From: a virus
Length of the DNA stretch: 64,000 nt
Reading direction: 5' to 3' (one strand)
IMG/VR virus record: IMGVR_UViG_3300031687_000007
Coordinates: 1-64,000 of that record
Shown piece by piece: positions 5,655-38,692 of this stretch. The notes beneath the pieces are model-generated. The model had not been told where the DNA came from. It did no database searches and worked only from the letters and a program-made list of their open reading frames with translations. Position numbers and translations under genes: made by a program. Each line of letters begins with the position of its first letter. The stretch's first letter is position 1.

Positions 5655-6854
5655 ATGACTGCTATTAATCCACTAGACCTTCCTGATGATGAGATCAACG
5701 ATGCCATCTCTACTGAACTGGCTCGACTAGATGAAGAAGAGGCTAGCGCCTCTCCTGATGTAGAAGATGACGTAGTAGAGTCAGATGACGAAACCGTAGA
5801 TGATGATGAAGCAGATGATGATGAAACTACGGATGAAGACGCTGATGAAGATTCTGAAGATAAAGAATCTGATCAAGACTCTGATGACGACTCTGAGGAC
5901 GCAGACGATGCGACTGAAGGTGATTCTGATGACAAGTCTGACGATGATGACGATAAGGATGAAGATCCTTCAGAGGACACTACAGAGGCTTCTAAGGAAG
6001 CTGACGTTGACTCTAAAGAAGAAATAGACTATAAAGTCCAGTATGAAGCCTTACTTAGCTCTTTCAAGGCTAATGGTAAGGAAATGAAGGTTGATACTGT
6101 AGAAGATGCTCGTGATCTGATGAAGATGGGTGCTAACTACAATAAGAAGATGGCTGCTATTAAGCCCAACCTTAAAGTCATGAAGATGTTGGATAACCAT
6201 GGCTTGCTGGACGAAGAAAAACTTAGCTACTTGATTGATCTTAGTAAAAAAGATCCTGAGGCAATCAAGAAGCTTGTGAAGGATAGTGGAATGGATCCAC
6301 TAGATATAGACACTGACAATATTGCTTATACACCAAAAGCTTACACTGTCTCCGATAGCGAAGTAGCTCTAGATGGAATACTCGATGACATTCGAGACAC
6401 AGAATCTTTCAATGCTACTATCGACATCATTGGCAACAAGTGGGACGAAGCGTCCAAAGACACCATCGCTAAAGATCCTAGTATCATTAAGGTCATTAAC
6501 GAGCATGTCGCATCAGGTATATATAAGCAGGTCAGCGAAGTTGTAGAACGGGAGCGAATTTTAGGAAGACTTAATGGTCTTTCTGATATTGAGGCTTATA
6601 AACAGATAGGCGATGCGATCAATGCTAAAGGAGGTTTCGGTGACCCCGTACAGGACACCAAGACTAATCCGACTAGTACATCCAAATCAAATAATGTTAA
6701 TAAGACAAACAATCCTGTAGATCCAAAGCTTAAAGATAAACGGCGAGCAGCGGGTTCTGCAAAAAGTAAGCCTAGTAAGGCTAAACCTGAATTTGACGTT
6801 CTCAATATGAGTGACGAAGAGTTCGAGAAGATGTCTTCTAGTAAGTTTGTTTAA
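5655..6854 (+). CDS. Scaffold-like acidic protein (N4 gp57-like)
   Basis: The 399-residue protein has a very acidic low-complexity region (about residues 22-120, mostly Asp/Glu/Ser), then a charged helical region and a lysine-rich C-terminal part (KLKDKRRAAGSAKSKPSKAK). It lies directly before the major capsid gene. Acidic N-terminus, helical centre and basic tail in this position are typical of podoviral scaffolding proteins, and gp57 occupies this slot in N4. The low-complexity DNA produces long open frames in other phases, which are not genes. The function is therefore well supported by position and composition, not by sequence motif. Confidence 0.75.
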   Translation: MTAINPLDLPDDEINDAISTELARLDEEEASASPDVEDDVVESDDETVDDDEADDDETTDEDADEDSEDKESDQDSDDDSEDADDATEGDSDDKSDDDDDKDEDPSEDTTEASKEADVDSKEEIDYKVQYEALLSSFKANGKEMKVDTVEDARDLMKMGANYNKKMAAIKPNLKVMKMLDNHGLLDEEKLSYLIDLSKKDPEAIKKLVKDSGMDPLDIDTDNIAYTPKAYTVSDSEVALDGILDDIRDTESFNATIDIIGNKWDEASKDTIAKDPSIIKVINEHVASGIYKQVSEVVERERILGRLNGLSDIEAYKQIGDAINAKGGFGDPVQDTKTNPTSTSKSNNVNKTNNPVDPKLKDKRRAAGSAKSKPSKAKPEFDVLNMSDEEFEKMSSSKFV

Positions 6855-6887
6855 ACTAATATTATTTAATTATTAAGGTGTATTATT

Positions 6888-8066
6888 ATGACTGCAAAGT
6901 ATAACGACCCAGCTGGCGGCACAGCCTCTACTGTAGGTTCACAGTTACGTACTGATTACTTCCACAAGAAAGCTCTTGTAGAAGCGGCAAAAGAAAGTTT
7001 CTTCGGTCAGTTGGCTGATGTTACTGCTATGCCTAAGAACATGGGTAAAACCATTAAGCGTTTCCATTACCTACCTATCCTTGATGATCGTAACATCAAC
7101 GATCAAGGTATCGACGCATCTGGTGCAACAATCTCTAACGGTAACCTATATGGTTCATCTAAAGACGTTGGTGTTATCGCTGCTAAGATTCCTGCTCTGT
7201 CTGAAGCTGGTGGTCGTGTTAACCGTGTTGGCATGAAGCGTATCGAACTTGAAGGTTCTATCGAGAAGTTTGGTTTCTTCGATGAGTACTCTCAAGAGTC
7301 TTTGGACTTCGATTCTGATTCTGAGTTACTTCAGCACATCACTACTGAGTCTGTGAAGGCTGCTAACGAGATGACTGAAGATCAACTTCAGGTAGACTTG
7401 TTGAACGGTGCTGGTGTTGTACGTCTAACTGGCGTAGCAACTACTGCTGCTGAGTTGTCTGGTGAAACCGGTGCAATCTCTGCTGTAACTTATGACGACT
7501 TGGTTAAGTTGAACATTGAGTTGAACAACAACCGTACACCTAAGCAAACCAAAGTAATCTCTGGTTCGCGTATGGTAGATACCAAAGTGGTTAACGCTGC
7601 TCGTATCATGTACGTTGGTTCTGAAATGATCCCTGCGATCATGAAGATGACTGACTACCACGGCAACAAGGCGTTTATCCCATTAGCTCAGTATGCACAA
7701 GCTGGTAGTGTGATTCGTGGTGAGATTGGTTCTGTAGACAGCTTCCGCATCGTTGAAGTTCCTGAGATGATGAAGTGGGCTGGTGCTGGTGCTGCTGAAT
7801 CAGCTAACGCTGGTTACTACGCTACTGGCGGTAACTACGACGTATTCCCAATGATGGTTGTTGGTGACGGCGCATTTACTACTATCGGTTTCCAAACTGA
7901 TGGCAAGACTGTTAAGTTTAAGATCAAGCACGTACGTCCTAGTGAGAACCATAGTTCTACTGACCCGTATGGCGAGACTGGCTTCTACAGCATCAAGTGG
8001 TACTACGGTACTATGTTGCTACGTACAGAGCGTTTAGCTGTAATCAAGACTGTTGCTGAAATCTAA
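6888..8066 (+). CDS. Major capsid protein (N4 gp56-like)
   Basis: The 392-residue protein resembles the N4-gp56/P22-coat class of HK97-fold capsid proteins. It has an N-terminal helix with 'QLRTDYFHKKALVEAAKE', a conserved 'KTIKRFHYLPILDDRNINDQ' strand region, and 'GSRMVDTKVVNA' and 'YHGNKAFIPLAQYAQ' segments in the middle. The size is near that of N4 gp56. Codon use here is noticeably enriched in C-ending codons compared with neighbours, as expected for the most highly expressed gene. A strong terminator follows at 8086. Several hundred copies would form the icosahedral head. Confidence 0.92.
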   Translation: MTAKYNDPAGGTASTVGSQLRTDYFHKKALVEAAKESFFGQLADVTAMPKNMGKTIKRFHYLPILDDRNINDQGIDASGATISNGNLYGSSKDVGVIAAKIPALSEAGGRVNRVGMKRIELEGSIEKFGFFDEYSQESLDFDSDSELLQHITTESVKAANEMTEDQLQVDLLNGAGVVRLTGVATTAAELSGETGAISAVTYDDLVKLNIELNNNRTPKQTKVISGSRMVDTKVVNAARIMYVGSEMIPAIMKMTDYHGNKAFIPLAQYAQAGSVIRGEIGSVDSFRIVEVPEMMKWAGAGAAESANAGYYATGGNYDVFPMMVVGDGAFTTIGFQTDGKTVKFKIKHVRPSENHSSTDPYGETGFYSIKWYYGTMLLRTERLAVIKTVAEI

Positions 8067-14911: not shown

Positions 14912-17900
14912 ATGTCTGAGCAAGATCTTCTTAGCACCCCACTTAATTCGCCTAACCAAGAAACTCAGCTAGCAGACGTATCATTACAACCAGCGTCAGC
15001 TGTTGTGCCTTCGGCACCAGCTGCCACTGTACCTATGGGCATTGATCAGAGTCTATATCAAGCAGCACCGGCTACCGGTATGCAAGACTTTGGTAGAACC
15101 AAATCAGAAAGTCTATCTATATCTTCAGACAACAAAGTTGAGCGCCTAGCTAATAGTACTAACCTAAAAAACCTTATATATAGAAAGGATGATGGTACGT
15201 CTTTTGATGTATCAAGCGTCTCCTCATCTGAGCGAGATAGTGCTGCCGTCATGTCTGTGGATCAAGCACAGAAGATGTTAGGTGCTGGTGCACGTACTAT
15301 TGGATCATTCATGGACAACCAATCAGTAGAAGATTGGGGCCAGTCAGTTGTAGATCAACAGATCATAGATCTAGAAGAAGGAGGCTATGAGCCTCTATCT
15401 GGTGGTATGAGTGTTCGTGAAATGTTTAAAGAACGTGGAGCGGGTAGTGCACTAGGTCGTGTATGGGAAATGATGCAAGAGAACCTTGCTACCTCTGGTG
15501 TCTCACTAGCAGGTGGAGCTGCTGCAGCCCTTACTGCACCATTTAGTGGTACCGCTGCTATTATGGTTCTAGGTGGAACTACATTAGCATCTGGTGCTAT
15601 GGGTGTGGGTGAGTCCGCTCTGGAGATGGAAGACAAGGGTGTTGAGATAAACGATGCTAAAGCTATAGGCACAGGTATATTGATTGGCCTACTAGACCGA
15701 TTCGGTGCCGGCAAGGTTATACCTAAAAACCTTCTCACCCGGATGACAGGTGATGCCATTGTTAAGCGCCTGGTTGAGAAAGGCTTTGTTGATGCAGCTA
15801 AGGGAGTTGCTAAAACTATCCTAGGCAAGGCTGCATGGGAGTCGGGTACTGAGGTAGCTCAGGAAGCACTCATCATTAATACTGCTGCCTCACAGGGAGC
15901 TGAGTACACCAAAGACGAGATAATTGATCGCTTTATTGATGTGGCATTTGTTGCTGCAGGCATGGGTGGTACTACTGCTACTGTGTCTGGCACTGTTGAA
16001 TATGGTAAAGCTGTTAGTACTAAGATAGCTAGCACTGTCAGTGACACACTTGTGGATGTCCGAGAACGTGCTGAAGTAGCTGCTGTACAAATTGAAGAGA
16101 TTGATAGGAGTAATTCTCCTACCCCTGTGGAAGGTGTGCCTCTTGATCCAACTACTGCAAAGACACCTGATTCTCCTACAGTAGCTCTTATAAGATTCTC
16201 TGCTGCTAATGATTATCTAAAAATACCAGTAGGAGAGAGAACCACTGAAAACACTCAGGCCTACATGGATGAGTACAATAAGCATTTAGAAGCGGCTCAG
16301 ACTTTCATAACTGAGCAGGAAGCATTAGGTACGCCAGTACCAAAAGCACAAAGTGATTTCGTAGGTGACTCTTTCACAGGTACAGATCAAGTAGCTGAGG
16401 AATATACTCGCCTAGTAGAAGTGGAAGGTGCTACAGATAATGATGCTCTAAAGATCGCAGTAGACCTATTAGCCTCCAAAGCAGAGGGAATGACCACTGC
16501 GGAAGACAAGAAGACATTCATAGAAGACACCCTTGGATCCATGGATCTAAGTAACGTATCAAGAAAAGGGTCTCCTACGTCCGCTGAGTTGCAAGATGTT
16601 AAGAATAAGCTTGGCATCAAGGATGGTGAAAATACTAAACTAGATACATACATAGCTCTTCGTAAGTCCGTGGAGAGTGTGTCTGACCAAGTAATGTCAG
16701 GTGAAGAGTCTGACGGTAAGTTTAAAGGTCTTAAGTGGCATATAGCACAGGTTACTGAAGCAACTAAGCGTGGTAATTCTGATGAGGCAACCAGTAAGTT
16801 AGACTTCCTTAAGAAGTGGTCAGATTACCAAGCATTTAAGACCACTAAGTTCCAAGAGATCCAGGCATACAATGCTGAGATCCAGGCAGGTAACTCACCA
16901 ACTCTTCCAACTAAGCTAGGTGGTGTTACCTACTTAGGCAAGGCAATTGACAATTTCACAATAGATTTTGAAGCATTTGGAGTTGATAAGACAACAGAAG
17001 AAGGTAAGAAGGTATGGTTCTATAATAAGACCAAAACACCTGCCCTAATTGCTACCATGGAGACTGACAGTGCTGCCATAGCAGACGTTCATGCTCAACT
17101 GGCCTCATTATATGCCCCAACTGTAGAAGTCCCTGTAGCGGCTCCTGTGAAGCCTAAAGAACAAGCACCTGTAACTGAAGTTCCTTCAATGGAAGATCAG
17201 GTAATAATTGACCAAACTGAGTCACAGATCAGCAAGCTAGAGGCTAAGTTAGCCAAAAAGCACTCTAAAGAGGAAGGCAAGCTGTGGAACAAGACAAAGA
17301 AGCTCATGGAAGCACGTTTGGTTAAGATGGGAGTGGTTCCTGTAGTTGAAGAGGACTTCTTAACATTCTCTGCAGAAGAGTCCGCCCAAGTTCATGAGGA
17401 TATTGCAGAAGATGCTGCACAAAGAAAGGTAGATAATCCAACCTTGGATCCAGAGCTAGCTTACAACACGCAGACCGGTTTATTTGAAGAAGCTACAGAT
17501 GTACCTACCAACATGGTGGTTACTAATGACAGCCCAGACTCTTCTATTAAACTTAGTGATTTCTTTGAGAATACAGGAAATGGTAGTACCACTGATGTAC
17601 AGGGAGCTGTTACCCCTGACATAGCTGAGGACTCCCTAATAGGTAAGAGTTACTTGAAGACTGTTAGAAACTTCTTCAAGAATTATCCTAAGATTACCCA
17701 CATTCTTAAATTAGATGACCGTCAGACTAAAGTATTAGGAAGTGTTCGTGATCTATTACGAATCATGTATAAAAACATGCCTGATGCTATTGAGAGTTTG
17801 CGTGGCAATGACTACGCCTATTCTGTTAACGCTGTTGGTGCAGACAAGAAGCAGACATGGAAAGTACTACAGTTCCCAATGCTTCTATTAGCTAAAGGTG

Positions 17901-20900
17901 CCAAAGAGAGGGCTAACTCTGCTAAAGGACATAAGGGTACTATAAAAGCGTTGTTCGATACTAATGTACTGAACATAATCAATATTACTGGCCTTAACTG
18001 GGTCACTACTATGGGTCAGAGCACTTTATACAATACTTCTGAGGACATTCACAAGATTGCCTCTAGTGAAGGTACTGCTCGCAAGATGAGTGATGAGACC
18101 ACACAAAAACTACACATAGCAGGTACCTTATACGGTAACGTAGTAGAACAGTTGGGTAAGGCAGTGTTTAACCAGTTAGGAATCAAGGTTAAGCAAGATG
18201 CACTGGCAATACATGGAGATCGTATGATTACGTCTCTAGGTATGGCAGCGGTAGAGTCGCTTATCGCCTCTGGTATGCTTGTTAAGACTCAAATACCAAC
18301 TAAAGACATATACACACTTCAATCCGGTGACTCTCAGGTTACATTTATACGCATAGCTACTGAGAAGACAGACAGCAATCTTGTTTTGGGTCAACCAACT
18401 CCCCTAGTACAATCAGTTCTTGACCTTACTAGTGCTAAAAACGCTAGTGCATACACTACTCTGATTCAGAAGATATCAGGTACTGAGCCTAGAGCTAAGT
18501 TCCCTAGATTTGGCAATGATATTAAGAAGCTTAAGGCAGGTGCTACTTATAATAAGACATCACGTCCATTACCTAAGAAGGTAATTAGTGACGTAAATAG
18601 GATGAATAAGGTCGATTGGAGATTTAAACCAGACATGCTATACCTTCTTCAACCTGAGAATAGAGAAGAAGCTACTGAGTTCTTTAAGCAACTTCAGGGA
18701 TTTGAGTATGCTATTGAAGATCGTCCTCTATACCTTCAGATGGGTGATGTAGGTCGCAATCTGGGTATTGTTAATGAAATTCAAGGTGTGTTCGACTTCT
18801 ATGACATGTATGTTGCAGAAGGAAGTAATGGGCCCTTTCACTTTTCATACAACACAGGTGAGAATGGTCGTCACAACGTCAATGAGAGTGCCTTCAGTTA
18901 CCAAGGCAGTAAGCTAGTTCGCCATCTAATATTCGCTGATAAGTATGCTACAGGATCTAAAGATGGCTTTAGTGTAGAGGTTACAGCTGGACAAGGTGGT
19001 GACCACTTCCAGATGTTCCAATATGCAGTAGTTCAGGCATTAAGTAAGTCAGTAAAAATTGATCATGGTAAACATGACGAGATTGTTACTGAGTTCTATC
19101 GCATAGCTAATGATATGGACACACGAGAGAATGCAGCAGCTGTGTTTGCCGATGGCTATGGATCCTCTGTGACTGAGTATCTACAAGATAATGGCCTAGG
19201 CGCCCATGGTTTGGACGGCTTACAGGCATTAGGAAGCTACCTAAATACCAGTCCAATCCTGGATCAATCTAAAGATACTGCAGATAGTCGAGATAACTCT
19301 AAGACGTTCACTACCGACCTAGCTATCGAGACTGACGCTATTACGAGTGGATTTATGCTTACCCTAATGAACTTCGGTGCGCTAGGTGATAAGAATATTA
19401 GTATGCTCTCTACTGGTGGTATTTTCTTAGCTGATAAAGAGACAGGTGAGTTCCACGAAAGTATTCCTAAATTCAGGGAGAAGACTGGTAACACTAAAGA
19501 CGTGTACACCATGCTTATTGATCCATGGAAATTAGCTGTAGATAAGTTGGTCGGTAAGCATAAAAGACTTTCTCCTATACTAGAATTAGTAGAAATGGAT
19601 CGTAACACTGCTAAACCAATCATCATGCAGGGTAGCTACATGGCTCAATATAAGAGTCTTGTTAATAACTTTATAAATGGCACTTCCGATGGGCAACTGG
19701 GTAAGCTATATGAGCGTATTCATGCTGCAGATAACGCAGGTAAAGTTAAAATATTCACTAACTTACTGGATTTGAAGACCCCTGGAATACAGAAAAGTAA
19801 TCCTACATTATTTAAGACCCGTTTAGATTCATTAATGGGTCTGAAGCTTAATGAGAGCCTATTGCCATACCCCTTAGTTACTAAGTACGAGGAGGTCTTA
19901 AGCAAAGTATATGGTGAGACTCTTACAGACACACTCGACAACATACTAACTATGCGTGACACGGCACAATCTGTTAACAAGATGGTCAACATGATGTCTT
20001 GGTACTACAGATGGCAAGTTAAGAAGGCAATAGATGCTGCTGGTGGCTACGCCAGTCTTACTCCTGCTAAGTTAACTAAGATCTATGAAGATCCTGCCTT
20101 AACAGCCCTACGCCCTTATCTGCCCACACCTGACTCTGTGTTAAAGGAAGAGGGACTTGCAGCACTAGCCAATGAAACAGTACGTGATCATACGTCCACT
20201 GATAATGTTGTTAAAATTAGTGGTCTTACCAACAATGAGGATGGACGTAAGTCTGCATACACACGCTCAGTGGAGAAGCGCACAGCTAATGAAGCAGCCA
20301 GATCCATAGTAGTAACTGTTCAAAGTATTGATGATACTATAGTTCGTGCTGTCATGAGCAAGTACAACGCTATGTCTGCGTTTGACGCTGTGTACACGAG
20401 TATTGGTCAATCTGTTGGCGCCTCACGTACGTACAACCAAAACGTTGCCTCAACTAGTGAAGGCTTCTCTATATTCGAGAACACATACAATAACTTCATG
20501 GAAGTTATGGCTCACACACAAGGTAGTGATAGATCTAACCTAGATGGCTTCATAAACTTCATGTCTGAAGATACTGAGGGCTTTAATTCTAAGAACTTCT
20601 CTGTAAGTACATTCTTACCTGAGATGTCCGGTGTTAATATCAGAGAGTCTGATTCAATGGAGTTCTTGCGTGACAGTATAACTGACACAATAGCTGGCAT
20701 GACGGAACAGAATGATGAAGTAGCTTCTAACCGTAAGGAGTTCTTTGAACGCTTACGTGTAGTGGATCACATGGGCATGCCTGGTACAGCCTTCAAAGTG
20801 AAACCCGGCGAAGATAGCCTTGGATCAATTACCCCTGTTAATGATGATGAGTTCAGCTACACTAAAGCAGGTGATTTGATTGCCGGCAATGTAGAGAAGA

Positions 20901-23900
20901 TATTTGATGGTATTAAAGATAATCGTACTAACTCTCCTGAGCATGTAGCAAAGCTTCGTGATGTACTTAATCGTATCGTATCTAAAGTAATTAAGACTAC
21001 TGACAAGTACGAGCTACACATGCAGTCTAAAGGTGAGACCTCATATGGCCGTCAGAGAGACGGTAAGGTCTTCTTGAACATTGGTAAGGGATTAGCCTTA
21101 AACCTTGTTACACCGTCTGCACAAGAGTCCTATGTACATGAACTTGTACACGTCATTACTCGTGCTGCTTTAAGTGACCCAAAGGCTAACGCTATCGTAC
21201 GTAAGCTTAGTGCCACTATGAGAGATACTGTTACTCATCTAGAAGAGAAGTACAACGGTAAGCCTTGGAGAGTGTTTCTACAACGCGATGCTAAAGGTAA
21301 CCCTGTGTATTCAGTCAATGTTAAGGAAGAGATCAAGGCTGCTAAAGCAGCTTATGACTATGTTTTTAACAATGCTCAGATGATAGAGACTCAATACATA
21401 GATACTGACTCAGGTAAGAAAGGTACCACCAAGATTCGTGCAGGATTGCATGAGTTCCTAGCATACGCATTGACCAACGAGCACCTAAACAGCGCTCTAG
21501 TGGGCATGAAAGTATCTAAGTATCAAGAAGTTGGTTCTCAGGATACTATCTTCCAGAAACTATTAGCTATCTTAGAGAATGTTATGGCCTGGGCTAAAGG
21601 TCTTATAGAGAAAGCTCAGAAGGCAACCCCAGCTGGTAACAATGCTGAACTTATTGAGCAGATGGTAGAAGAGCTTACTCATGTAAATGATAAGTTTAGA
21701 TTCCGTACTCAGAAAGCAGTTGTTGCGATGACTGCAGCTAACAAAAAGGTAGTTGATGCTATAACTGAGAAGATGCTTAAGCCATTAGCAGAGAAGACTC
21801 TTTCTGCTAGAGATCATGCGATATTGGAGCGTAAGTTAGGTAAGGCATACGCATTACTATTTGTAGGATATATCAACCCAGTATCTCGTATAGAAAGTCG
21901 AACCAAGATGGACATAGTTCGTAAGTCTATGCAGGCATCCAAACGTAACTTTATAACTGAGCTGTATCGTGAGATCACAGGTAATGTGACACCTCATCAA
22001 CGTATCCTTGAAAAGATGTTAATGGATGCAAAGAAGAATTTAGAGTCACAACGCGATGATGCTATAAGTGCTATTGCCATTAACATATCACGTGGATATA
22101 TTGAAGGAGCTGGTGCACTGTCTACGTTTGAAGATGAGTCACACACAAGAGTGTTGATAGAGACTAATATTTCTTCTCTTATTAAAGATTGGACTAAAGT
22201 TAATATTCCTGCACTTGCTAGTATCATCTCAGACGATGCTACCAGAGCTAAGGCTATTGTTGATGTACGTAAAAAGCTTAATGCATATGGCAGATTAGGT
22301 GATTACTACATCGGTATGGCTAACAGCCTTGGATCAATCATGGCAACACAAAAGGCCACAGTAGATGGTTCCTTGATGAACGCTGCTCTGATAGCCCGTG
22401 CTGACGACCTAAAAGGTGTTCCTGGTATTAGAATGCCTGAGGTAATGAAAGATGCTGAAGCCCTCATAAATGAATTAGCTACCCTTACAGCCCTTGAATA
22501 TAACACCCAAGATGCTAGACAGGCTGTGGCTAATGTTATGCTACGAGAGCATGCGAATAATTCAGAAAGGAATGCTGCAATCAACACATTGACTCAGATT
22601 GATGAGTTCAATAAGCAGTCTTTGGCTCGTAACTTTGATGGTAATAATATTCAGCAGTCTGCAGGCTACTCTAAAGATATCTACAATCCGGATATTAGTA
22701 TCAGAGTGGATACTGTAGAGATGGAGGCCGAATATAAGAAGCAAGGTTATGTTATGGATCCAGGTATTATACCTACTGATCCTGCCGATACAGACTCTCC
22801 TGCTACCATGAGAATGTACGTTAATAAGTCAGGTGGGCATGGTATTAGACAAAAGTTCATCATGTCTGTTACTAACACCAACATGTCAGGACAGAGTATA
22901 ACCAAGAGAGCTAGTGAGAGTGGGGATAAGGCTGCCTTTGCAAAAGCTAAGAGATTGGTAAGAAATGTACGTGCACAGAATAAGCTTGAAGCATTGAAGC
23001 TACTAGGTAATCCTGATTATGTGAGCAGTAAGCCTAACATCATGATCCCTGTAACTGATCAGCTTGGTAAGGTAATGGACTTCCGCTATACAATGGAGAA
23101 GTCTAAGAGAGCCCGTGTATTTGAACAGAAAGCTGGTATGACAGCTGTATTGAGCCATATGTATGGTGGTATCGTAGATAAAGAAGAGACTCCTCGTATT
23201 AATAACAAGGTAATTGAAGAGCTGCACCTACAGTATCGTGAAAAAGGTATGAAAGGTAACAGAGACTTCGTAGAGGTGTCTTTAAACGCTAAGACTGAAG
23301 AGCTTAGAGAACTTTATATGATACTTCCAGACAGCACCAAGAGGTTCATAAAGTCACACACCGGTTCTGATAAAGTTATGATCCAGGCTGAGTTTATAGA
23401 CATAGTATTTGGTCGCAAAAAGGTACAGTTACCTGGAGGCGACAAGATGCAAGTAGCCACTAATGCATGGACACAGATGATTGCTGCAGCCAAGAAGAAC
23501 ATTGTAATAAAGTGGCCTGCAACTTTATCTATGAACGTATTGTCTAACACTATGTTAGGTATTCTTTCTGGAGTACCACCTGAGTATATGGTTAAGATGC
23601 AGGCAGAAGGTGCCATTAAGCTTAATAACTATGTGGAAGATGGTAAGCAGCTTAGAGATCTTAACCTTCAGTTAATGACTGCTAAGAAGACTGGTAAAAG
23701 TACTAAGAAAATATTGGCTGATATATCTACGGTTGAGAGTAGTATAAATACATCACCAATATTGCCTCTTATTAAAGCAGGTGTATTCCAAACTATCGTG
23801 GAAGACATTGATGTACTGAACAATCCTTATTCGTATGCTTCTAAGATAAGTGAGTTCTTTGATGGTATTCAAGGTAAGGGAGGTAAGGTAGGTGGGTCTG

Positions 23901-24385
23901 TCGCAGGTGCACGTCAAGCTTATCGTTATGCTTACATGAGTGATGACACTGCAGTATTTAAGGCCTTAATGAAGACCACGCAGTTTAGTGACTTTGCTGG
24001 TAGGTATGCAATCTACCAATACATGACTGTGCATGAGAGTGTGGAAGAAAGTGCTGCATTGGAACATGTTATGGATGGTTTCGTTAACTACGAAACACCT
24101 ACTAACAAGTACATCCAGTTTGCCAACGACTATGGCTTACAGATGTTTACTAAGTACGGTTTCAGAATACTACGTGCTATCTCTGCTTTGCTCCATGGCA
24201 AACCGTTGAACGCTATAGGCTTCTTAGTACTTAATGATGTACTTGCTGCAGGTCTAGCATCACCATTTGATGCCACTCCTTTTGATAACTATGCTAGTCC
24301 AGTGACTAACATAATATCTGCAACTACACAGAGTGGTACTAAGGCAGCAATGGACACTGCCTCACTACTGGGTGTGATTGACTAG
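14912..24385 (+). CDS. Virion-encapsidated RNA polymerase (N4 gp50-like), 3157 aa
   Basis: This giant protein carries a T7-family single-subunit RNA polymerase core in its centre. Visible motifs are GENGR (R1320, TxxGR-like), motif A with D1475 (ETDAITSG), motif B with R1564, K1568 and Y1576 (RNTAKPIIMQGSY), and motif C with D1825 (SAFDAVYTS). The K-to-Y spacing of 8 and the D-to-D distance of 350 fit N4 gp50, whose core also lies centrally. Residues about 185-345 hold hydrophobic Gly/Ala-rich stretches that may contact the host membrane. After the core there is a zinc-protease-like HELVH at 2076-2080, with H2180-E2181 about 100 residues on. It would be packaged, injected and then transcribe early genes from hairpin promoters. 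Confidence 0.93.
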   Translation: MSEQDLLSTPLNSPNQETQLADVSLQPASAVVPSAPAATVPMGIDQSLYQAAPATGMQDFGRTKSESLSISSDNKVERLANSTNLKNLIYRKDDGTSFDVSSVSSSERDSAAVMSVDQAQKMLGAGARTIGSFMDNQSVEDWGQSVVDQQIIDLEEGGYEPLSGGMSVREMFKERGAGSALGRVWEMMQENLATSGVSLAGGAAAALTAPFSGTAAIMVLGGTTLASGAMGVGESALEMEDKGVEINDAKAIGTGILIGLLDRFGAGKVIPKNLLTRMTGDAIVKRLVEKGFVDAAKGVAKTILGKAAWESGTEVAQEALIINTAASQGAEYTKDEIIDRFIDVAFVAAGMGGTTATVSGTVEYGKAVSTKIASTVSDTLVDVRERAEVAAVQIEEIDRSNSPTPVEGVPLDPTTAKTPDSPTVALIRFSAANDYLKIPVGERTTENTQAYMDEYNKHLEAAQTFITEQEALGTPVPKAQSDFVGDSFTGTDQVAEEYTRLVEVEGATDNDALKIAVDLLASKAEGMTTAEDKKTFIEDTLGSMDLSNVSRKGSPTSAELQDVKNKLGIKDGENTKLDTYIALRKSVESVSDQVMSGEESDGKFKGLKWHIAQVTEATKRGNSDEATSKLDFLKKWSDYQAFKTTKFQEIQAYNAEIQAGNSPTLPTKLGGVTYLGKAIDNFTIDFEAFGVDKTTEEGKKVWFYNKTKTPALIATMETDSAAIADVHAQLASLYAPTVEVPVAAPVKPKEQAPVTEVPSMEDQVIIDQTESQISKLEAKLAKKHSKEEGKLWNKTKKLMEARLVKMGVVPVVEEDFLTFSAEESAQVHEDIAEDAAQRKVDNPTLDPELAYNTQTGLFEEATDVPTNMVVTNDSPDSSIKLSDFFENTGNGSTTDVQGAVTPDIAEDSLIGKSYLKTVRNFFKNYPKITHILKLDDRQTKVLGSVRDLLRIMYKNMPDAIESLRGNDYAYSVNAVGADKKQTWKVLQFPMLLLAKGAKERANSAKGHKGTIKALFDTNVLNIINITGLNWVTTMGQSTLYNTSEDIHKIASSEGTARKMSDETTQKLHIAGTLYGNVVEQLGKAVFNQLGIKVKQDALAIHGDRMITSLGMAAVESLIASGMLVKTQIPTKDIYTLQSGDSQVTFIRIATEKTDSNLVLGQPTPLVQSVLDLTSAKNASAYTTLIQKISGTEPRAKFPRFGNDIKKLKAGATYNKTSRPLPKKVISDVNRMNKVDWRFKPDMLYLLQPENREEATEFFKQLQGFEYAIEDRPLYLQMGDVGRNLGIVNEIQGVFDFYDMYVAEGSNGPFHFSYNTGENGRHNVNESAFSYQGSKLVRHLIFADKYATGSKDGFSVEVTAGQGGDHFQMFQYAVVQALSKSVKIDHGKHDEIVTEFYRIANDMDTRENAAAVFADGYGSSVTEYLQDNGLGAHGLDGLQALGSYLNTSPILDQSKDTADSRDNSKTFTTDLAIETDAITSGFMLTLMNFGALGDKNISMLSTGGIFLADKETGEFHESIPKFREKTGNTKDVYTMLIDPWKLAVDKLVGKHKRLSPILELVEMDRNTAKPIIMQGSYMAQYKSLVNNFINGTSDGQLGKLYERIHAADNAGKVKIFTNLLDLKTPGIQKSNPTLFKTRLDSLMGLKLNESLLPYPLVTKYEEVLSKVYGETLTDTLDNILTMRDTAQSVNKMVNMMSWYYRWQVKKAIDAAGGYASLTPAKLTKIYEDPALTALRPYLPTPDSVLKEEGLAALANETVRDHTSTDNVVKISGLTNNEDGRKSAYTRSVEKRTANEAARSIVVTVQSIDDTIVRAVMSKYNAMSAFDAVYTSIGQSVGASRTYNQNVASTSEGFSIFENTYNNFMEVMAHTQGSDRSNLDGFINFMSEDTEGFNSKNFSVSTFLPEMSGVNIRESDSMEFLRDSITDTIAGMTEQNDEVASNRKEFFERLRVVDHMGMPGTAFKVKPGEDSLGSITPVNDDEFSYTKAGDLIAGNVEKIFDGIKDNRTNSPEHVAKLRDVLNRIVSKVIKTTDKYELHMQSKGETSYGRQRDGKVFLNIGKGLALNLVTPSAQESYVHELVHVITRAALSDPKANAIVRKLSATMRDTVTHLEEKYNGKPWRVFLQRDAKGNPVYSVNVKEEIKAAKAAYDYVFNNAQMIETQYIDTDSGKKGTTKIRAGLHEFLAYALTNEHLNSALVGMKVSKYQEVGSQDTIFQKLLAILENVMAWAKGLIEKAQKATPAGNNAELIEQMVEELTHVNDKFRFRTQKAVVAMTAANKKVVDAITEKMLKPLAEKTLSARDHAILERKLGKAYALLFVGYINPVSRIESRTKMDIVRKSMQASKRNFITELYREITGNVTPHQRILEKMLMDAKKNLESQRDDAISAIAINISRGYIEGAGALSTFEDESHTRVLIETNISSLIKDWTKVNIPALASIISDDATRAKAIVDVRKKLNAYGRLGDYYIGMANSLGSIMATQKATVDGSLMNAALIARADDLKGVPGIRMPEVMKDAEALINELATLTALEYNTQDARQAVANVMLREHANNSERNAAINTLTQIDEFNKQSLARNFDGNNIQQSAGYSKDIYNPDISIRVDTVEMEAEYKKQGYVMDPGIIPTDPADTDSPATMRMYVNKSGGHGIRQKFIMSVTNTNMSGQSITKRASESGDKAAFAKAKRLVRNVRAQNKLEALKLLGNPDYVSSKPNIMIPVTDQLGKVMDFRYTMEKSKRARVFEQKAGMTAVLSHMYGGIVDKEETPRINNKVIEELHLQYREKGMKGNRDFVEVSLNAKTEELRELYMILPDSTKRFIKSHTGSDKVMIQAEFIDIVFGRKKVQLPGGDKMQVATNAWTQMIAAAKKNIVIKWPATLSMNVLSNTMLGILSGVPPEYMVKMQAEGAIKLNNYVEDGKQLRDLNLQLMTAKKTGKSTKKILADISTVESSINTSPILPLIKAGVFQTIVEDIDVLNNPYSYASKISEFFDGIQGKGGKVGGSVAGARQAYRYAYMSDDTAVFKALMKTTQFSDFAGRYAIYQYMTVHESVEESAALEHVMDGFVNYETPTNKYIQFANDYGLQMFTKYGFRILRAISALLHGKPLNAIGFLVLNDVLAAGLASPFDATPFDNYASPVTNIISATTQSGTKAAMDTASLLGVID

Positions 24386-30730: not shown

Positions 30731-31846
30731 TTATAGTGCTGCATCTATGATTTCCTGAGCTGTAGCATTATTAGGTATTGTAATTTTACTACCCATACTT
30801 GGATAATAGATTTCTAAGTTTGCACCTAGCTTAACAATGTCATGCTTAAGTTCCGGTAACTCCTGCCAAGACATGCTATCTACTAGGTTTGTGTTTAACC
30901 AAGCTATTAGATCTGGATCAGTTTTTACCATGTAATACTGTGCATCATGTATATGTGCAATAGGTAAAATACTATATCTATAAGCAGAGGTATGAACCTT
31001 GCCCATAAATTCATTAGCTGCACGGTTATTAAGTAGTCCGTATGACTGACCTAATGCGTTGCCGGCAGTACGTCCTTCAGCCTGTGCTTCAAAGGGCGTA
31101 TGACGTGTGTTTAAGATCGTTTGAGCTAGAACAGGTGTTCTTAGGCGTAGACCGAATGCACCTGTTACATAGCCATTCTTAGTAGCCTCTATGAGCTTAA
31201 CTTGTACCCATTCATCGGATACCTTGTACAGCTCGTGATAGTTATCAACAATCTCACGTGCTTCCTCTTTAGAGAAACCTAGTGTGTTGACTAAGGTATG
31301 CTCAGTTCCCTGATAGGTAAGAGCAAACGTAGGGCCTTTGGATCGTTGCCTAAGTGCCTCATACATCGTTTCAATACTATTGATCGAGGCAACTGTGTCC
31401 ACGATATCAGGCATCTGCTTACCAAAGTATGCGAATGCTCTTAAACAGTGACCGTCATAGCCATCTGCATATACTTTAATCTTGTTTGGATCTTTAGTTG
31501 TAAGAGCTGAAATCTTGTCTTCAAGACTAGAGAAGTCAGCACCCACTATGACCCACCCAGGAGGAGCCTGAAAGCATCCTTTAATTGCCTTAGCAAACTT
31601 ACTCCCAGTAGATGGAAGCTGTTGTAGGTTGATCTTAGAGGAGCTCAGGCGTCCTGATTTGGTACCACCCAAATGAAAGTTACCATGAAGGAACCATTTA
31701 CCCATCTTGGGTATGGTCTTGAATAAGAAAGCAGGGACGAATGCAGTTAGTAACTTACTAACCTCATTTATCTCCATCAGATACTTAAGGACTCTTGCTA
31801 CCTTGATAGCATCATCCCTATTCTTAATCTTAGATATTCCACTCAT
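30731..31846 (-). CDS. DNA polymerase A family, C-terminal (palm/fingers) fragment
   Basis: The 371-residue protein holds the polymerase half of a family A enzyme: motif A IVGADFSSLEDK (D104), motif B RQRSKGPTFALTYQG (K170) and motif C AHIHDAQYY (D301), with HGNFHLGGTKSGRLSSSKIN upstream as in T7/Pol I. The carboxylates needed for catalysis are present. The exonuclease and thumb portions are encoded separately at 32596-34092. The two parts sum to 869 residues, about the size of intact N4 gp39. It overlaps the preceding small gene by 17 bases. It must associate with the N-terminal fragment to give an active replicase. Confidence 0.9.
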   Translation of the reverse strand: MSGISKIKNRDDAIKVARVLKYLMEINEVSKLLTAFVPAFLFKTIPKMGKWFLHGNFHLGGTKSGRLSSSKINLQQLPSTGSKFAKAIKGCFQAPPGWVIVGADFSSLEDKISALTTKDPNKIKVYADGYDGHCLRAFAYFGKQMPDIVDTVASINSIETMYEALRQRSKGPTFALTYQGTEHTLVNTLGFSKEEAREIVDNYHELYKVSDEWVQVKLIEATKNGYVTGAFGLRLRTPVLAQTILNTRHTPFEAQAEGRTAGNALGQSYGLLNNRAANEFMGKVHTSAYRYSILPIAHIHDAQYYMVKTDPDLIAWLNTNLVDSMSWQELPELKHDIVKLGANLEIYYPSMGSKITIPNNATAQEIIDAAL

Positions 31847-32204
31847 AGTTCAAAGTTTCCTGTGCATCTTTGATGTAGTTAGATAGAGCTATCTCTGGGA
31901 AGTCTTCTAATGAAATGCTAGTACGTAGTACAATGTTAGATGTGAGATGGTCTACTAAATGACCTGGGGTATACGTCATACCCTTCATCTCTACTTTAAG
32001 CTGATCCAGAAGTAGCACTGTATGCATCCTGTTAAATGGAGCAGACTCTGACTCATCAAGTACTAAATTAATATCACCAGTAATTGTGTTGCTCTTAAGA
32101 TTATAGTTATCAAGTGACCAACTGATACTCTGCGCCCCAGTAGAGAGCTTCGATAGACCTAACCTAAACTGCTCCCCTAGGTCGCTTAACTTGAATTTAT
32201 CCAT
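31830..32204 (-). CDS. Small protein B inserted between DNA polymerase fragments
   Basis: This 124-residue protein starts 19 bases inside the gene before it and ends 17 bases inside the polymerase C-terminal gene. Its C-terminal half (GDINLVLDES...FPEIALSNYIKDAQ...LNYEW) lines up with that of the neighbour at 32186-32599 (GELRIKLTDG...YPDIQLRQLL...LIHSW), so the pair look like diverged duplicates. There is no nuclease, intein or homing-endonuclease motif. Mixed strands and helices with a hydrophobic core suggest a folded domain. Overlap implies coupled translation with the polymerase parts. Confidence 0.65.
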   Translation of the reverse strand: MDKFKLSDLGEQFRLGLSKLSTGAQSISWSLDNYNLKSNTITGDINLVLDESESAPFNRMHTVLLLDQLKVEMKGMTYTPGHLVDHLTSNIVLRTSISLEDFPEIALSNYIKDAQETLNYEWNI

Positions 32205-32599
32205 AATATACTCCTTTTAGGGAACTTTGGGTTACGCCATGAATGTATTAACACTGGTGGTTTCCCAGTGAGTAGTTGCCTTAGTTGAATATCAGGGTAG
32301 TTTTTTATCTCTACCTTTAATGGTAGATCTACGGTGTACTTAGTACTGTGTGCTCGGCGCCATCTATCAATACTGATGATATCCATCTTACTTAATACAA
32401 TGCCCATAGCCTTCTCAAACTTGGGCCTATCGTGCCCATCAGTTAACTTGATCCTAAGTTCACCATACATAATGGTTGGTATCCTAGAATACCTAACACA
32501 TAGATTTATATGGATCACCTTAATATGGTCACGGAGTATCGGAGTACGTTTAACCACATCAACGATTCGGTCGAATAGTAATTCTTTAGCAGTGCTCAC
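32186..32599 (-). CDS. Small protein A inserted between DNA polymerase fragments
   Basis: The 137-residue frame starts with GTG overlapping the TGA of the polymerase N-terminal gene (GTGA), with AGGAG two bases upstream. The protein is basic (C-terminus RNPKFPKRSILWINSS; middle DRWRRAHSTKYTVD) and shares its strand-rich second half with the following gene. Tight overlap on both sides means all four genes are translated together. I see no motif of a mobile element. A structural subunit of the split polymerase, or a replication accessory, is the simplest reading. Confidence 0.65.
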   Translation of the reverse strand: MSTAKELLFDRIVDVVKRTPILRDHIKVIHINLCVRYSRIPTIMYGELRIKLTDGHDRPKFEKAMGIVLSKMDIISIDRWRRAHSTKYTVDLPLKVEIKNYPDIQLRQLLTGKPPVLIHSWRNPKFPKRSILWINSS

Positions 32600-34092
32600 A
32601 ACTCCTCCTCATCAATGTCATATTGATTAAGTAACAACTTATACAGCTTCTTAATGGTTTTCTTCCCAGTAGCTGGTTGCCCTGTGTCTGTAGTATCTAA
32701 CACTGGAAGCCCTAGGAAGCCATATAAGAGACTGCTAAGCTGAAGAGGACTATTGGTATTCAATGACTGAACAAACTCGTCCAGAGGCTTAAACTTCTTC
32801 TTTAGAAGGGTATTCTTAAGAATGAATGCCTTCTTCTGCTCAAGCCACAGGTAGTCTTTAACTAACTCTGTTCTGTGAAGGTTCCTAGTACTAGTAGACA
32901 TAATCTTTTTGAGATCTTCCTCCACTACTTCAATGGAAGGCATATCCATAGGCATACCTGTAAGTTCCATCTGAGTGATGTTCTTAAGGGATGGTATGAA
33001 TATGTTACGGTAGATCTCTAACTGATCGTCCTCACACATCTTGTCGTAATACTTATTGAATACATACCAAGTACTAAGGCAATCAACCAAGTTGTAGTTC
33101 ATAAGATCTACATTTTGGATCAAGTTAATATCATGGATATCTTCCTGAGCATAGTTGCCTGCATACTCAAACGCATTATGTTTAAGTGATAGTTTATTCT
33201 CAGCTGTGTTATTAGTAGCTAGGTATGTGATGATCTTAGTGTCATCTATGTCCCTGAACATAACGTCCAGTGCATCTACCATAGCAACGAAGTCAGTACT
33301 CACCTCCCTCATAAACACGTCGTATATAATACAACGAATATCAAATGAGGCATTGTGGTACTTAAGGTTACCTTTGTACTGGGTGAAGAAAGCGTAAAGT
33401 AGATCAACTAGTTTCCACTTATCCTCATCTGTACGTGTAATCATATGAGATACGTTTATAGTAACGCCTTCATGCTGATTCCATGCAAATGCAATAGTAC
33501 CAATACGAGACTCACCAATAGATAGGCCAAAGGTCTCTACGTCACAAGTGAGTGAGGGATACTGGTGTAAAGATTCCAGCTGGAATTTAATATCAGCTAG
33601 ATCATCCACATAAGTAGATGAGTGAATTATACCTTGACCAATTATCTGGTAGTTACCACCTAGGTCAGCTGATATAGCTTCAAGACTTATATCTATCTTC
33701 TCTTGTAGAGCTGGGTTATAGAATAGCCCTTGATAGTTAGCAGTAAGGAATACATTCATGTGCTCAAATCCTTTAACCATACAGGGCATTTTATAGCTGT
33801 AGTGTGGCTCAGACTTAGATTGTTTAGTTGCTGCTTTGAAGTATGTAGAGTCGGCTATTATTACAGTAATAATGCCCTCTGCATCCAGATCAGCTAAAAG
33901 TGCAGGTAGTACTTCCTTAATCATCTTAGCAGGCGCCTTACCAGCAGAGTTGAACTCTAATGGCATTACTTTTAAACATGCTTGTAGGGGCTCTGCATAG
34001 TGCTTCATTACACCATCGTATTTATAGGCAGATTCTTTGATCAACAGGGCAGCATCCGGGAACTTGTCCGGATCAGTGTAAAAGTGTTTCAT
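32596..34092 (-). CDS. DNA polymerase A family, N-terminal (exonuclease/thumb) fragment
   Basis: The 498-residue protein carries a 3'-5' exonuclease domain: Exo I LTCDVETFG (D184, E186), Exo II NASFDIRC (D251) and Exo III YNLVDCLSTW. It then runs into a family A thumb region whose last part (NTNSPLQLSSLLYGFLGLPV, then TGKKTIKKLYKLLL) matches the thumb of Pol I/T7 polymerase just before the palm. It stops there. The palm and fingers are encoded at 30731-31846. GAGGT lies 4 bases before ATG. The break is therefore clean, at a domain boundary, in an otherwise complete enzyme. Confidence 0.9.
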   Translation of the reverse strand: MKHFYTDPDKFPDAALLIKESAYKYDGVMKHYAEPLQACLKVMPLEFNSAGKAPAKMIKEVLPALLADLDAEGIITVIIADSTYFKAATKQSKSEPHYSYKMPCMVKGFEHMNVFLTANYQGLFYNPALQEKIDISLEAISADLGGNYQIIGQGIIHSSTYVDDLADIKFQLESLHQYPSLTCDVETFGLSIGESRIGTIAFAWNQHEGVTINVSHMITRTDEDKWKLVDLLYAFFTQYKGNLKYHNASFDIRCIIYDVFMREVSTDFVAMVDALDVMFRDIDDTKIITYLATNNTAENKLSLKHNAFEYAGNYAQEDIHDINLIQNVDLMNYNLVDCLSTWYVFNKYYDKMCEDDQLEIYRNIFIPSLKNITQMELTGMPMDMPSIEVVEEDLKKIMSTSTRNLHRTELVKDYLWLEQKKAFILKNTLLKKKFKPLDEFVQSLNTNSPLQLSSLLYGFLGLPVLDTTDTGQPATGKKTIKKLYKLLLNQYDIDEEEL

Positions 34093-37302: not shown

Positions 37303-37551
37303 TCAAGTCACCAAATGGGCTTTAGACATAGCCTTATTAATTTCCAATTGATGTACCAGCTCTATCTTCATCTTACTATCTTCCAACTTGAAAGATGAGA
37401 AAGTAGGCGCCTTACCATAGTCCTCATTAACAACAACAGCATTCTTGAAGGACTTCATCAATGTCATTGCGTCATCTAGTGGCATTACTAATTTAAAGTC
37501 ATAGCCAAAGGTTACTTTAGCTAGTACCTCACCATGCGTGATCTGACTCAT
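37303..37551 (-). CDS. 82-residue hypothetical protein after VWA gene
   Basis: The start is placed at ATG 37551, which overlaps the VWA gene end by 23 bases; the longer frame to 37686 would lie fully inside that gene. The product (MSQITHGEVLAKVTFGYDFK...) seems to be a small alpha/beta protein, with GGGGAG 11 bases upstream. Function is unknown. The overlap suggests it belongs with the MoxR-VWA module. Confidence 0.55.
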   Translation of the reverse strand: MSQITHGEVLAKVTFGYDFKLVMPLDDAMTLMKSFKNAVVVNEDYGKAPTFSSFKLEDSKMKIELVHQLEINKAMSKAHLVT

Positions 37552-38692
37552 AGTATATTGTCTCCCCATAAGGTTGCGGATCGTGTTTGGAGTAACAGAT
37601 CCACATTGTTTCAAACTCATATCCGTCCTCCGGTCTGATAGTCTCAGCATATAAGTCGGTAAAGTAGAGCAGTACGTTAGTATCATGCTCTTTGCAGTAC
37701 TCTAGTGGTGGTATAAAGGACGTACCTCCATTACCAGAGAACTTAAGCTTCATGATCTCAGTACTATCATCCACTTCATGTATGTTATGGATCTTGTAGT
37801 CACAGTCTAGGATTGTCATCTTATCTGGTTGGTAGGTATCATAGATACTCTTCACCTCAGTAAGAATCTCTGCAAGCATAGCCTCACTAACAGAACCTGA
37901 TGTGTCTACTGCCACTGTGATGTGATCAATACTCTCTGAGTACATCGTAGGCATGTAGTGATTGGGCATATATCGTCTGTTAGGACGTGCCCATGTGTAG
38001 TCATCTTTAGCAGTAGAATCCATGAATCTAGCTAACAACTGAGTCCAATCTAAGACCGGGTTGATGAGTTCGTCAATCATACGATCAACTTCACCAGGAA
38101 TCTTTCCAGCTTCCTCACCACCTTCCATCTTAGCTTGAGCTCTAGCCTTGATAACAGTATCTTGGACACTACTAGCAATGTCATTCTGAGTGTCTTCGTC
38201 CTGATCACCAGAGAAGTCCACATCACCACCTAAAGTATTAGGCTGATCCTGTGCATCCTGGTCTTTGATCAAGTCATCATAGACCTCTTCAGTACTCCAA
38301 CCATGATACTTAGCATCATATAGGTGTGGCTCAGGCAGTACGTATCCACTATTGCGTAGTATATCGTTGATGACAAAGTCACCAGCTTGGTTATACACAC
38401 TATGGTCACGAGTACCTAGACGAATCATATGCATTAGGGCTACGTGCATAATCTCGTGTGCCAATACACCAATACGTTCCTGCTTACTTAGTGAGCTAAA
38501 GAACGATGGGTTAAACATAATACGTTTGCCATCAGTGGCTGCAGTATCAATAGCATTGGTAAACACATGCTTCATCATAAGACCGACAGATATCAGGAAG
38601 GTACCCCCTTGCATCATTAAACCAATCTTGGACTTATCCAGCTCCTTTTGGAGTGCTGGTGTAATATCAACTTGTGGGTATTTCTCTTCCAT
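37529..38692 (-). CDS. VWA/metallopeptidase-like protein (N4 gp25-like)
   Basis: The 387-residue protein has the two-part layout of the DUF2201 family. The N-terminal part contains a zinc-binding-type HEIMH (H79-H83, then H88 and R91), and the C-terminal part a von Willebrand A domain beginning ITVAVDTSGSVSEAM, in which D-x-S-x-S forms a MIDAS metal site. The middle is acidic and likely flexible. It pairs with the MoxR ATPase at 39589-40605, as gp24/gp25 do in N4. MoxR-VWA pairs act as chaperones that assemble or activate protein complexes. All metal ligands seen are intact. Confidence 0.85.
   Translation of the reverse strand: MEEKYPQVDITPALQKELDKSKIGLMMQGGTFLISVGLMMKHVFTNAIDTAATDGKRIMFNPSFFSSLSKQERIGVLAHEIMHVALMHMIRLGTRDHSVYNQAGDFVINDILRNSGYVLPEPHLYDAKYHGWSTEEVYDDLIKDQDAQDQPNTLGGDVDFSGDQDEDTQNDIASSVQDTVIKARAQAKMEGGEEAGKIPGEVDRMIDELINPVLDWTQLLARFMDSTAKDDYTWARPNRRYMPNHYMPTMYSESIDHITVAVDTSGSVSEAMLAEILTEVKSIYDTYQPDKMTILDCDYKIHNIHEVDDSTEIMKLKFSGNGGTSFIPPLEYCKEHDTNVLLYFTDLYAETIRPEDGYEFETMWICYSKHDPQPYGETIYYESDHAW

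Follow-up and report, generated by a model that had tools for sequence, protein, structure and literature searches.

A family A DNA polymerase encoded by separate exonuclease and palm genes in N4-like phages

Can a phage DNA polymerase be encoded in two pieces, with other genes between them, and still work as one enzyme? The question is raised by a 64,000-base stretch of viral DNA (the window), taken from the 67,825-base virus record IMGVR_UViG_3300031687_000007. Here an exonuclease-bearing DNA polymerase of family A is encoded not as one polypeptide but by two open reading frames (ORFs) in different frames, an exonuclease–thumb half (exo half) and a palm–fingers half (palm half), with two small ORFs, ORF1 and ORF2, between them. 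In our preferred explanation, to which we give a probability of about three in four, a polymerase of the type found in phage N4 was split, most likely once, in one clade, and its two coupled chains assemble into one polymerase. Two working chains are the best reading because the same split is kept in diverged lineages and both halves are under purifying selection.

A polymerase locus of four genes

The catalytic motifs are divided between the two halves (Table 1), as an earlier note on this DNA had proposed. Exo I–III all match in the 498-residue product, whose profile match runs to the thumb–palm connection, and motifs A, B and C all match in the 371-residue product, which also matches Pfam DNA_pol_A (E 1.7e-31). 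Compared with solved structures, the exo profile can be followed along the Klenow chain as far as position 294, and the match of the palm profile sets in at position 304; we take these to be approximately residues 617 and 627, assuming that the chain starts at 324. Profile and structure matches end and start at this boundary, and the cut, read from these matches, is in the short connection leading from thumb to palm, where the note had placed it.

The genes form the tightly overlapping string that had been described, with overlaps of 4 nucleotides (nt) between exo and ORF1, 19 nt between ORF1 and ORF2 and 17 nt between ORF2 and palm. The suggestion that the two halves add up to an intact polymerase holds for length: 498 + 371 = 869 residues lies within the range of five full-length intact proteins (859, 863, 865, 872 and 876 residues). 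However, the polymerase has not simply been cut. Each half has extra residues at the junction. Read from alignments, the exo half continues for about 15 residues beyond its last position clearly shared with intact proteins, and the palm half begins about 15 residues ahead of its first such position; at the corresponding junction, intact proteins have about 11 residues. Other split loci have purine-rich runs at the place of GAGGAGGAG, just before the next start. Since the exo tail encodes this run, translation of the exo half probably feeds the following gene.

Both polymerase halves are under purifying selection, judged from ratios of nonsynonymous to synonymous substitution (dN/dS). Between the window and contig L005 the ratio is 0.078 for exo and 0.044 for palm (near saturation), and in the closer pair L012/L014 it is 0.076 and 0.065, respectively. 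Values of 0.116 and 0.141 were obtained for ORF2, and 0.436 for a pair (L054/L057) from the MSL family, one of the small-ORF families that stand between the halves in other lineages.

Table 1 Features of the polymerase locus and the virion RNA polymerase gene in the window
Feature	Position	Strand	Details
Exonuclease–thumb half of family A DNA polymerase	34092-32596	-	498 residues; PHROG 17 columns 535-922, E 2.9e-56
Exo I / Exo II / Exo III in exo half	residues 182 / 245 / 333	-	motif match
Exo-half C-terminal tail, residues 484-498	32599-32643	-	not in intact junctions inspected
GAGGAGGAG, ribosome-binding-like run within exo tail codons, directly before ORF1 GTG	32602-32610	-	putative function
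ORF1	32599-32186	-	137 residues, GTG start; window's near-identical group only
ORF2	32204-31830	-	124 residues; no assigned function; conserved at junction in three diverged lineages
AGGAAA, ribosome-binding-like run in ORF2 end, nine bases before palm ATG	31856-31861	-	putative function
Palm-half N-terminal head, residues 1-15, own start codon	31802-31846	-	read from alignments
Palm–fingers half of family A DNA polymerase	31846-30731	-	371 residues; PHROG 17 columns 931-1246, E 6.9e-74
Motifs A / B / C in palm half	residues 102 / 166 / 297	-	motif match
Virion RNA polymerase	14912-24385		3157 residues; phrog_2206, E 8.3e-256

The remaining genes identify the phage. In addition to the virion RNA polymerase, the window encodes an N4-type RNA polymerase II in two genes (phrog_2051 and phrog_2166), a single-stranded DNA-binding protein (SSB) of N4 type (phrog_743), a Sak4-like ATPase, and a primase and an exonuclease (PHROG matches). 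On the strength of these genes, the window belongs to an N4-like phage (Schitoviridae). A 387-residue protein at 37529–38692 carries the PHROG label HNH endonuclease; by eye it looks peptidase-like and VWA-like, and the label may be wrong.

Recurrence of the split and the DNA at the junction

Three wide scans (best 80 of 345, 391 and 361 relatives) and eight cultured phages yielded 206 loci, which after removal of contig copies gave 121 distinct N4-type palms, the basis of the counts given here. The palm is in one ORF with the exonuclease in 98 of them and is split from it at the same junction in 15; in 3 the interruption lies within the palm (L038 from phage pYD6-A, L042 from phage Pollock, and L185), and 5 are on contigs that end too early. 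For one of these 5, L055, the same-junction split is visible on a near-identical contig, L056. L053 is probably split too, given the end of an ORF of another small family, MAK, directly before its palm. At L185:4535-7921, the thumb–palm junction is intact and the palm is broken by an ORF that looks like an HNH gene.

The search of related genomes that the earlier note had recommended thus found the split on near-identical and on diverged contigs. All four genes recur on L003, and matching palm, ORF1 and ORF2 genes on L002, both IMG/VR contigs near-identical to the window. In L005 (palm 88% identical) and L014 (84%) the order is exo–ORF2–palm, without ORF1, and ORF2 is also carried by L004, L012, L013 and L015. 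Because near-identical contigs share the layout and diverged contigs show exo–ORF2–palm, an assembly error is disfavoured.

The split halves also share features at the junction. A similar exo tail, for example NKLTNEHNLTDKELE, ends all 14 of the split exo halves inspected, whereas the 28 intact junctions inspected (of 35 sought, L059 and L060 included) all have a short loop in place of the tail. Exo motifs are present in 8/8 rows of the exo alignment and palm motifs in 10/10 rows of the palm alignment; both are also present in L154, L192 and L196, and, by eye, in L162. Among 60 cultured-phage records sampled evenly from 2,728 matches, ten were taken as N4-like (H164–H173) and none has the same split: nine match the junction query in one piece, and PGN829.1 matches it in two with an HNH gene. 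On contigs of bacterial genomes, 12/12 N4-type DNA polymerases were found intact.

What stands between the halves differs from lineage to lineage (tallied over the 15 split rows and L055/L056). ORF2 is found in five rows (the window and L046–L049), with ORF1 in addition in the window's row; an MSL-family ORF of 187–206 residues in four (L054, L055/L056, L057 and L162); and a MAK-family ORF of 149–150 residues in two (L052 and L062/L063). The L194 junction holds an HNH endonuclease gene (phrog_374), the only one among the split loci examined, and a 73-residue ORF. This HNH gene (L194:5859-6542) overlaps the exo gene by 4 nt, a hint of how split or cargo could arise; the locus also carries two tRNA genes. 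In L077, a 230-nt stretch (6765-6994) with 26-nt inverted repeats (25/26 matching) and no listed ORF of at least 30 residues lies exactly between the halves. Its sister L154 is without this stretch, and no further copy was found in the fetched loci apart from the same contig. Finally, L154, L192 and L196 have no ORF between the halves, and their exo and palm genes overlap by 4–8 nt. Three split lineages of this kind show that the split does not depend on the small ORFs.

No relation among the ORF2, MSL and MAK families was detected with hhalign, a weak test with few sequences for each. Every record that carries one has a single copy (MSL in 5/42 records, ORF2 in 7/42 and MAK in 2/42). The only MSL match away from the junction is in L084, which has an intact polymerase; it lies directly after the Sak4-like ATPase gene, seemingly the same place as that of the SSB gene in N4, which follows gp44.

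ORF2 is always at the junction where it is found, with 47–62% identity among three diverged lineages and a near-invariant stretch at its end, whereas no ORF1 turned up outside the window and the contigs near-identical to it. ORF1 is possibly a diverged copy of ORF2, as the two align by BLASTP (E 0.014, 16% over 94 columns) and their predicted models agree in the order of helices and strands (predicted local distance difference test (pLDDT) 61.7 for ORF1, a weak model, and 70.8 for ORF2); by hhalign the relation is not significant. Fold searches with the two models gave no functional lead; against ferredoxin-like and tail-terminator folds, the ORF2 model reaches at best a Foldseek E of 0.023 in the PDB and 0.0032 in BFVD, and a Z score of 9.3. 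Neither protein matched an HNH or similar nuclease in Pfam or PHROGs, and nothing was found among 31 proteins neighbouring the DNA polymerase in eight N4-like phages (hhalign with single sequences, a weak test). In cultured phages, tblastn with the L005 version of ORF2 gave no match at E up to 1; ORF1 has three matches at E 0.8, and MSL and MAK members have none at E up to 0.1. Since ORF1 is confined to the window's group and three split lineages lack any ORF between the halves, the small ORFs are, as far as sequence tells, lineage-specific and outside the basic enzyme. ORF1 and ORF2 of the window would then be lineage-specific accessory or passenger proteins, not bridges that are always needed.

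Probable origin of the split and working of the two chains

Trees were built without L038, L042, L185, L104, L110 and L167, leaving 115 of the 121 palms, 106 of them with both halves. For IQ-TREE, 43 joined exo and palm rows were selected from these 106 around the split clade. The 15 split rows and the intact L060 are set apart from 27 intact rows with support 94/88 (not starred), requiring two changes of state. The exo tail common to the split rows argues separately for a single origin, which these comparisons make likely but do not prove. L060, although intact, falls with L062 in the tree, which calls for a further reversal or exchange; our reading is that L060 arose by re-fusion or gene exchange inside the split clade.

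We propose that the gene was cut, most likely once, at the thumb–palm connection in the ancestor of one N4-like phage clade. The halves would now be separate, translationally coupled genes whose products assemble into one exonuclease–polymerase. In this process the exo half would have gained a short acidic C-terminal tail, the codons of which double as a ribosome-binding-like run for the next gene, and the palm half would have acquired a start codon of its own and, at its N terminus, a short head. Depending on the lineage, the boundary so created would later have stayed empty or taken up ORF2 (alone or together with ORF1), a member of one of two other small-ORF families, an HNH gene or an element with inverted repeats. 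We infer the roles of the exo tail and of the small ORFs, and take assembly into a heteromer to be probable by analogy with gp43A and gp43B of T4-like phages, which, according to a review (PMC2988022), co-purify and are active.

Several observations weigh against this explanation. A clade of split rows alone is rejected (p-AU, the approximately unbiased test, 5e-6), with L060 placed as described above. A FastTree of the 106 joined rows gathers the 15 split rows and 6 intact ones into one group of 21, and trees of palm only or exo only do not gather the split rows. The tree columns included junction columns, which may favour the grouping of split rows. That both chains are present together in one enzyme is argued from analogy. 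A third subunit would fit too, since ORF2 is under constraint and has been seen nowhere but at the junction. Lastly, the L194 palm (L194:7001-8113) has an in-frame stop within motif B, and this locus has no match to the Exo I pattern used; not every split copy is certainly sound.

The halves might instead be joined after transcription or in translation, by a group I intron, trans-splicing, a split intein or programmed frameshifting. N4-like DNA polymerases do get interrupted by group I introns and HNH genes: pYD6-A has such an interruption, those of JA1 and VCO139 are reported to be so interrupted (PMC3670811), L194 has its HNH gene at this very junction, and the authors describing phage MEP401 raise the intron idea for their own case (PMC10580990). 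However, Rfam gave no group I intron match at gathering score in the window or in 8 other split loci; the search found the pYD6-A intron used as control and missed Pollock, which has an HNH gene in its DNA polymerase, so some introns escape it. Nor did an intein family (Hint) match exo, ORF1, ORF2 or palm in Pfam at E up to 1, and the earlier note's statement that no intein, homing nuclease or group I intron sign is present agrees with the Pfam, PHROG and Rfam results for the window. The frame of palm relative to exo is 0, 1 or 2 depending on the lineage, and both 0 and 2 within the ORF2 group, and the residues added as tail and head would be superfluous for joining. With no intron or intein match and no constant frame, a joined product is unlikely. 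We consider it unlikely that ORF2, or its replacements elsewhere, is an obligate third subunit bridging the halves, but its conservation across three diverged lineages is sufficient for a true partner and keeps this idea alive; also in its favour are the single copy of each of the three ORF families in the records that have one and the position of an MSL-family gene within the L084 replication region. Against it stand the split loci L154, L192 and L196 without an ORF between the halves (although a bridging protein encoded elsewhere is possible), the lack of a detectable relation among the ORF families (few sequences each), and the pair L077 and L154, whose junctions are distinguished by nothing more than a non-coding element.

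Exonucleases and polymerases are also known as stand-alone enzymes, and the two products could work apart, as a palm polymerase and a separate exonuclease that form no stable complex. Yet family A polymerases need the thumb to hold DNA, and the thumb sits on the exo half, leaving the palm half without it; gene order and coupling are also kept across the split loci seen. Separate working is accordingly improbable, to much the same degree as joining. Decay of the split gene, with another polymerase copying the genome, is scarcely credible: broken genes often look like this, and the L194 palm carries a stop, but dN/dS is low on both halves, the split recurs in many lineages, and no other DNA polymerase matched among the window proteins scanned (a subset of ORFs).

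Helicase, related systems and meaning

The split is accompanied by a second difference in replication genes. N4 encodes a gp37-type helicase two genes upstream of its DNA polymerase, whereas none was found in the record of the window. Among 50 records of 40 kb or more, searched with a positive control, the helicase matched in 38/39 intact and 1/11 split records, the exceptions being the intact L181, without a match, and the split L162, with a weak one; the split records G000, G001, G042, G002, G005, G006, G011, G012, G017 and G018 gave no match. Among fetched intact loci with more than 2.5 kb upstream, 68/72 have the helicase; no match was found in the 1.3 kb present upstream of the L060 polymerase. 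Split and helicase absence thus mark nearly the same set of phages. The split records include near-copies (window/L003, L004/L005 and L014/L015), and as the rows are related the association amounts to one or few events. It suggests that the replisome changed too. SSB was found in 20/22 records and the Sak4-like family in 22/22; the latter also matches all 14 control genomes and is not specific. In three split records the Sak4-like match lies in two separated pieces (G012:27561-29281, G014:31370-32899 and G017:63798-65585), and this gene may be interrupted too.

A broader possibility, which we regard as doubtful, is a remodelled replisome: the clade would have lost the gp37-type helicase and acquired a two-chained polymerase whose boundary docks interchangeable third proteins, ORF2 and two other families, each in its own lineages, at the thumb–palm junction. 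The family A polymerase of T7 takes up the processivity factor thioredoxin, and the thumb–palm junction lies near the place of uptake.

The DNA polymerases of N4 (gp39) and other Schitoviridae belong to the same sequence family as that of the window, have its exonuclease and polymerase motifs, and likewise stand before gp42/gp43-type exonuclease and primase genes, but are encoded by one gene where the window has two. In pYD6-A, Pollock, VEc25 and JA1 (HNH gene or group I intron), an N4-like DNA polymerase is also in pieces; the pYD6-A and Pollock inserts are inside the palm, in contrast to the thumb–palm junction of the window. Outside this family, the family A polymerase of the OM43 phages MEP401 and MEP402 (Zobellviridae) is likewise divided over two ORFs, which flank a 77-residue ORF, an arrangement reported for most of their group (PMC10580990). 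The layout resembles that of the window, but the phage family differs and, in our own reading, the cut is just before motif A, after a GRLSSS-PNLQN motif; hhalign found no relation of the 77-residue ORF to ORF1 or ORF2. Among T4-like Aeromonas phages, an essential polymerase is again made as two chains from neighbouring genes, gp43A and gp43B, separated by non-coding DNA or by a gene for a homing endonuclease (PMC2988022); these differ from the window in polymerase family (B) and phage group. Phage MIJ3 has a PolB in two ORFs with a gene between, as in the window, and a split intein from which protein splicing was inferred (PMC6892783), whereas the window has no intein family match. A split Pol III-type alpha subunit is described for some jumbo phages.

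Split phage polymerases are therefore already known, and the window adds a natural case: two neighbouring ORFs, each part of a polymerase and kept by selection. New here are the phage family, the cut site, the spread over diverged lineages and the changing cargo; we recognised no earlier report of a split N4-like DNA polymerase of this kind in our searches of open papers. Such phages may be overlooked or recorded as truncated by surveys whose marker is the full-length N4 DNA polymerase. The loci form a natural series that begins with an intact gene, passes through a pair of overlapping genes and ends with gene pairs enclosing different cargo, with a possible way back in L060. This series makes the fission of an essential enzyme testable, through junction residues for pairing and the separate tuning of exonuclease and polymerase, and likewise the use of a boundary inside an old gene as a landing site for new genes. 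In this way nature provides a test of how an enzyme once made in one piece can come to function as an assembly.

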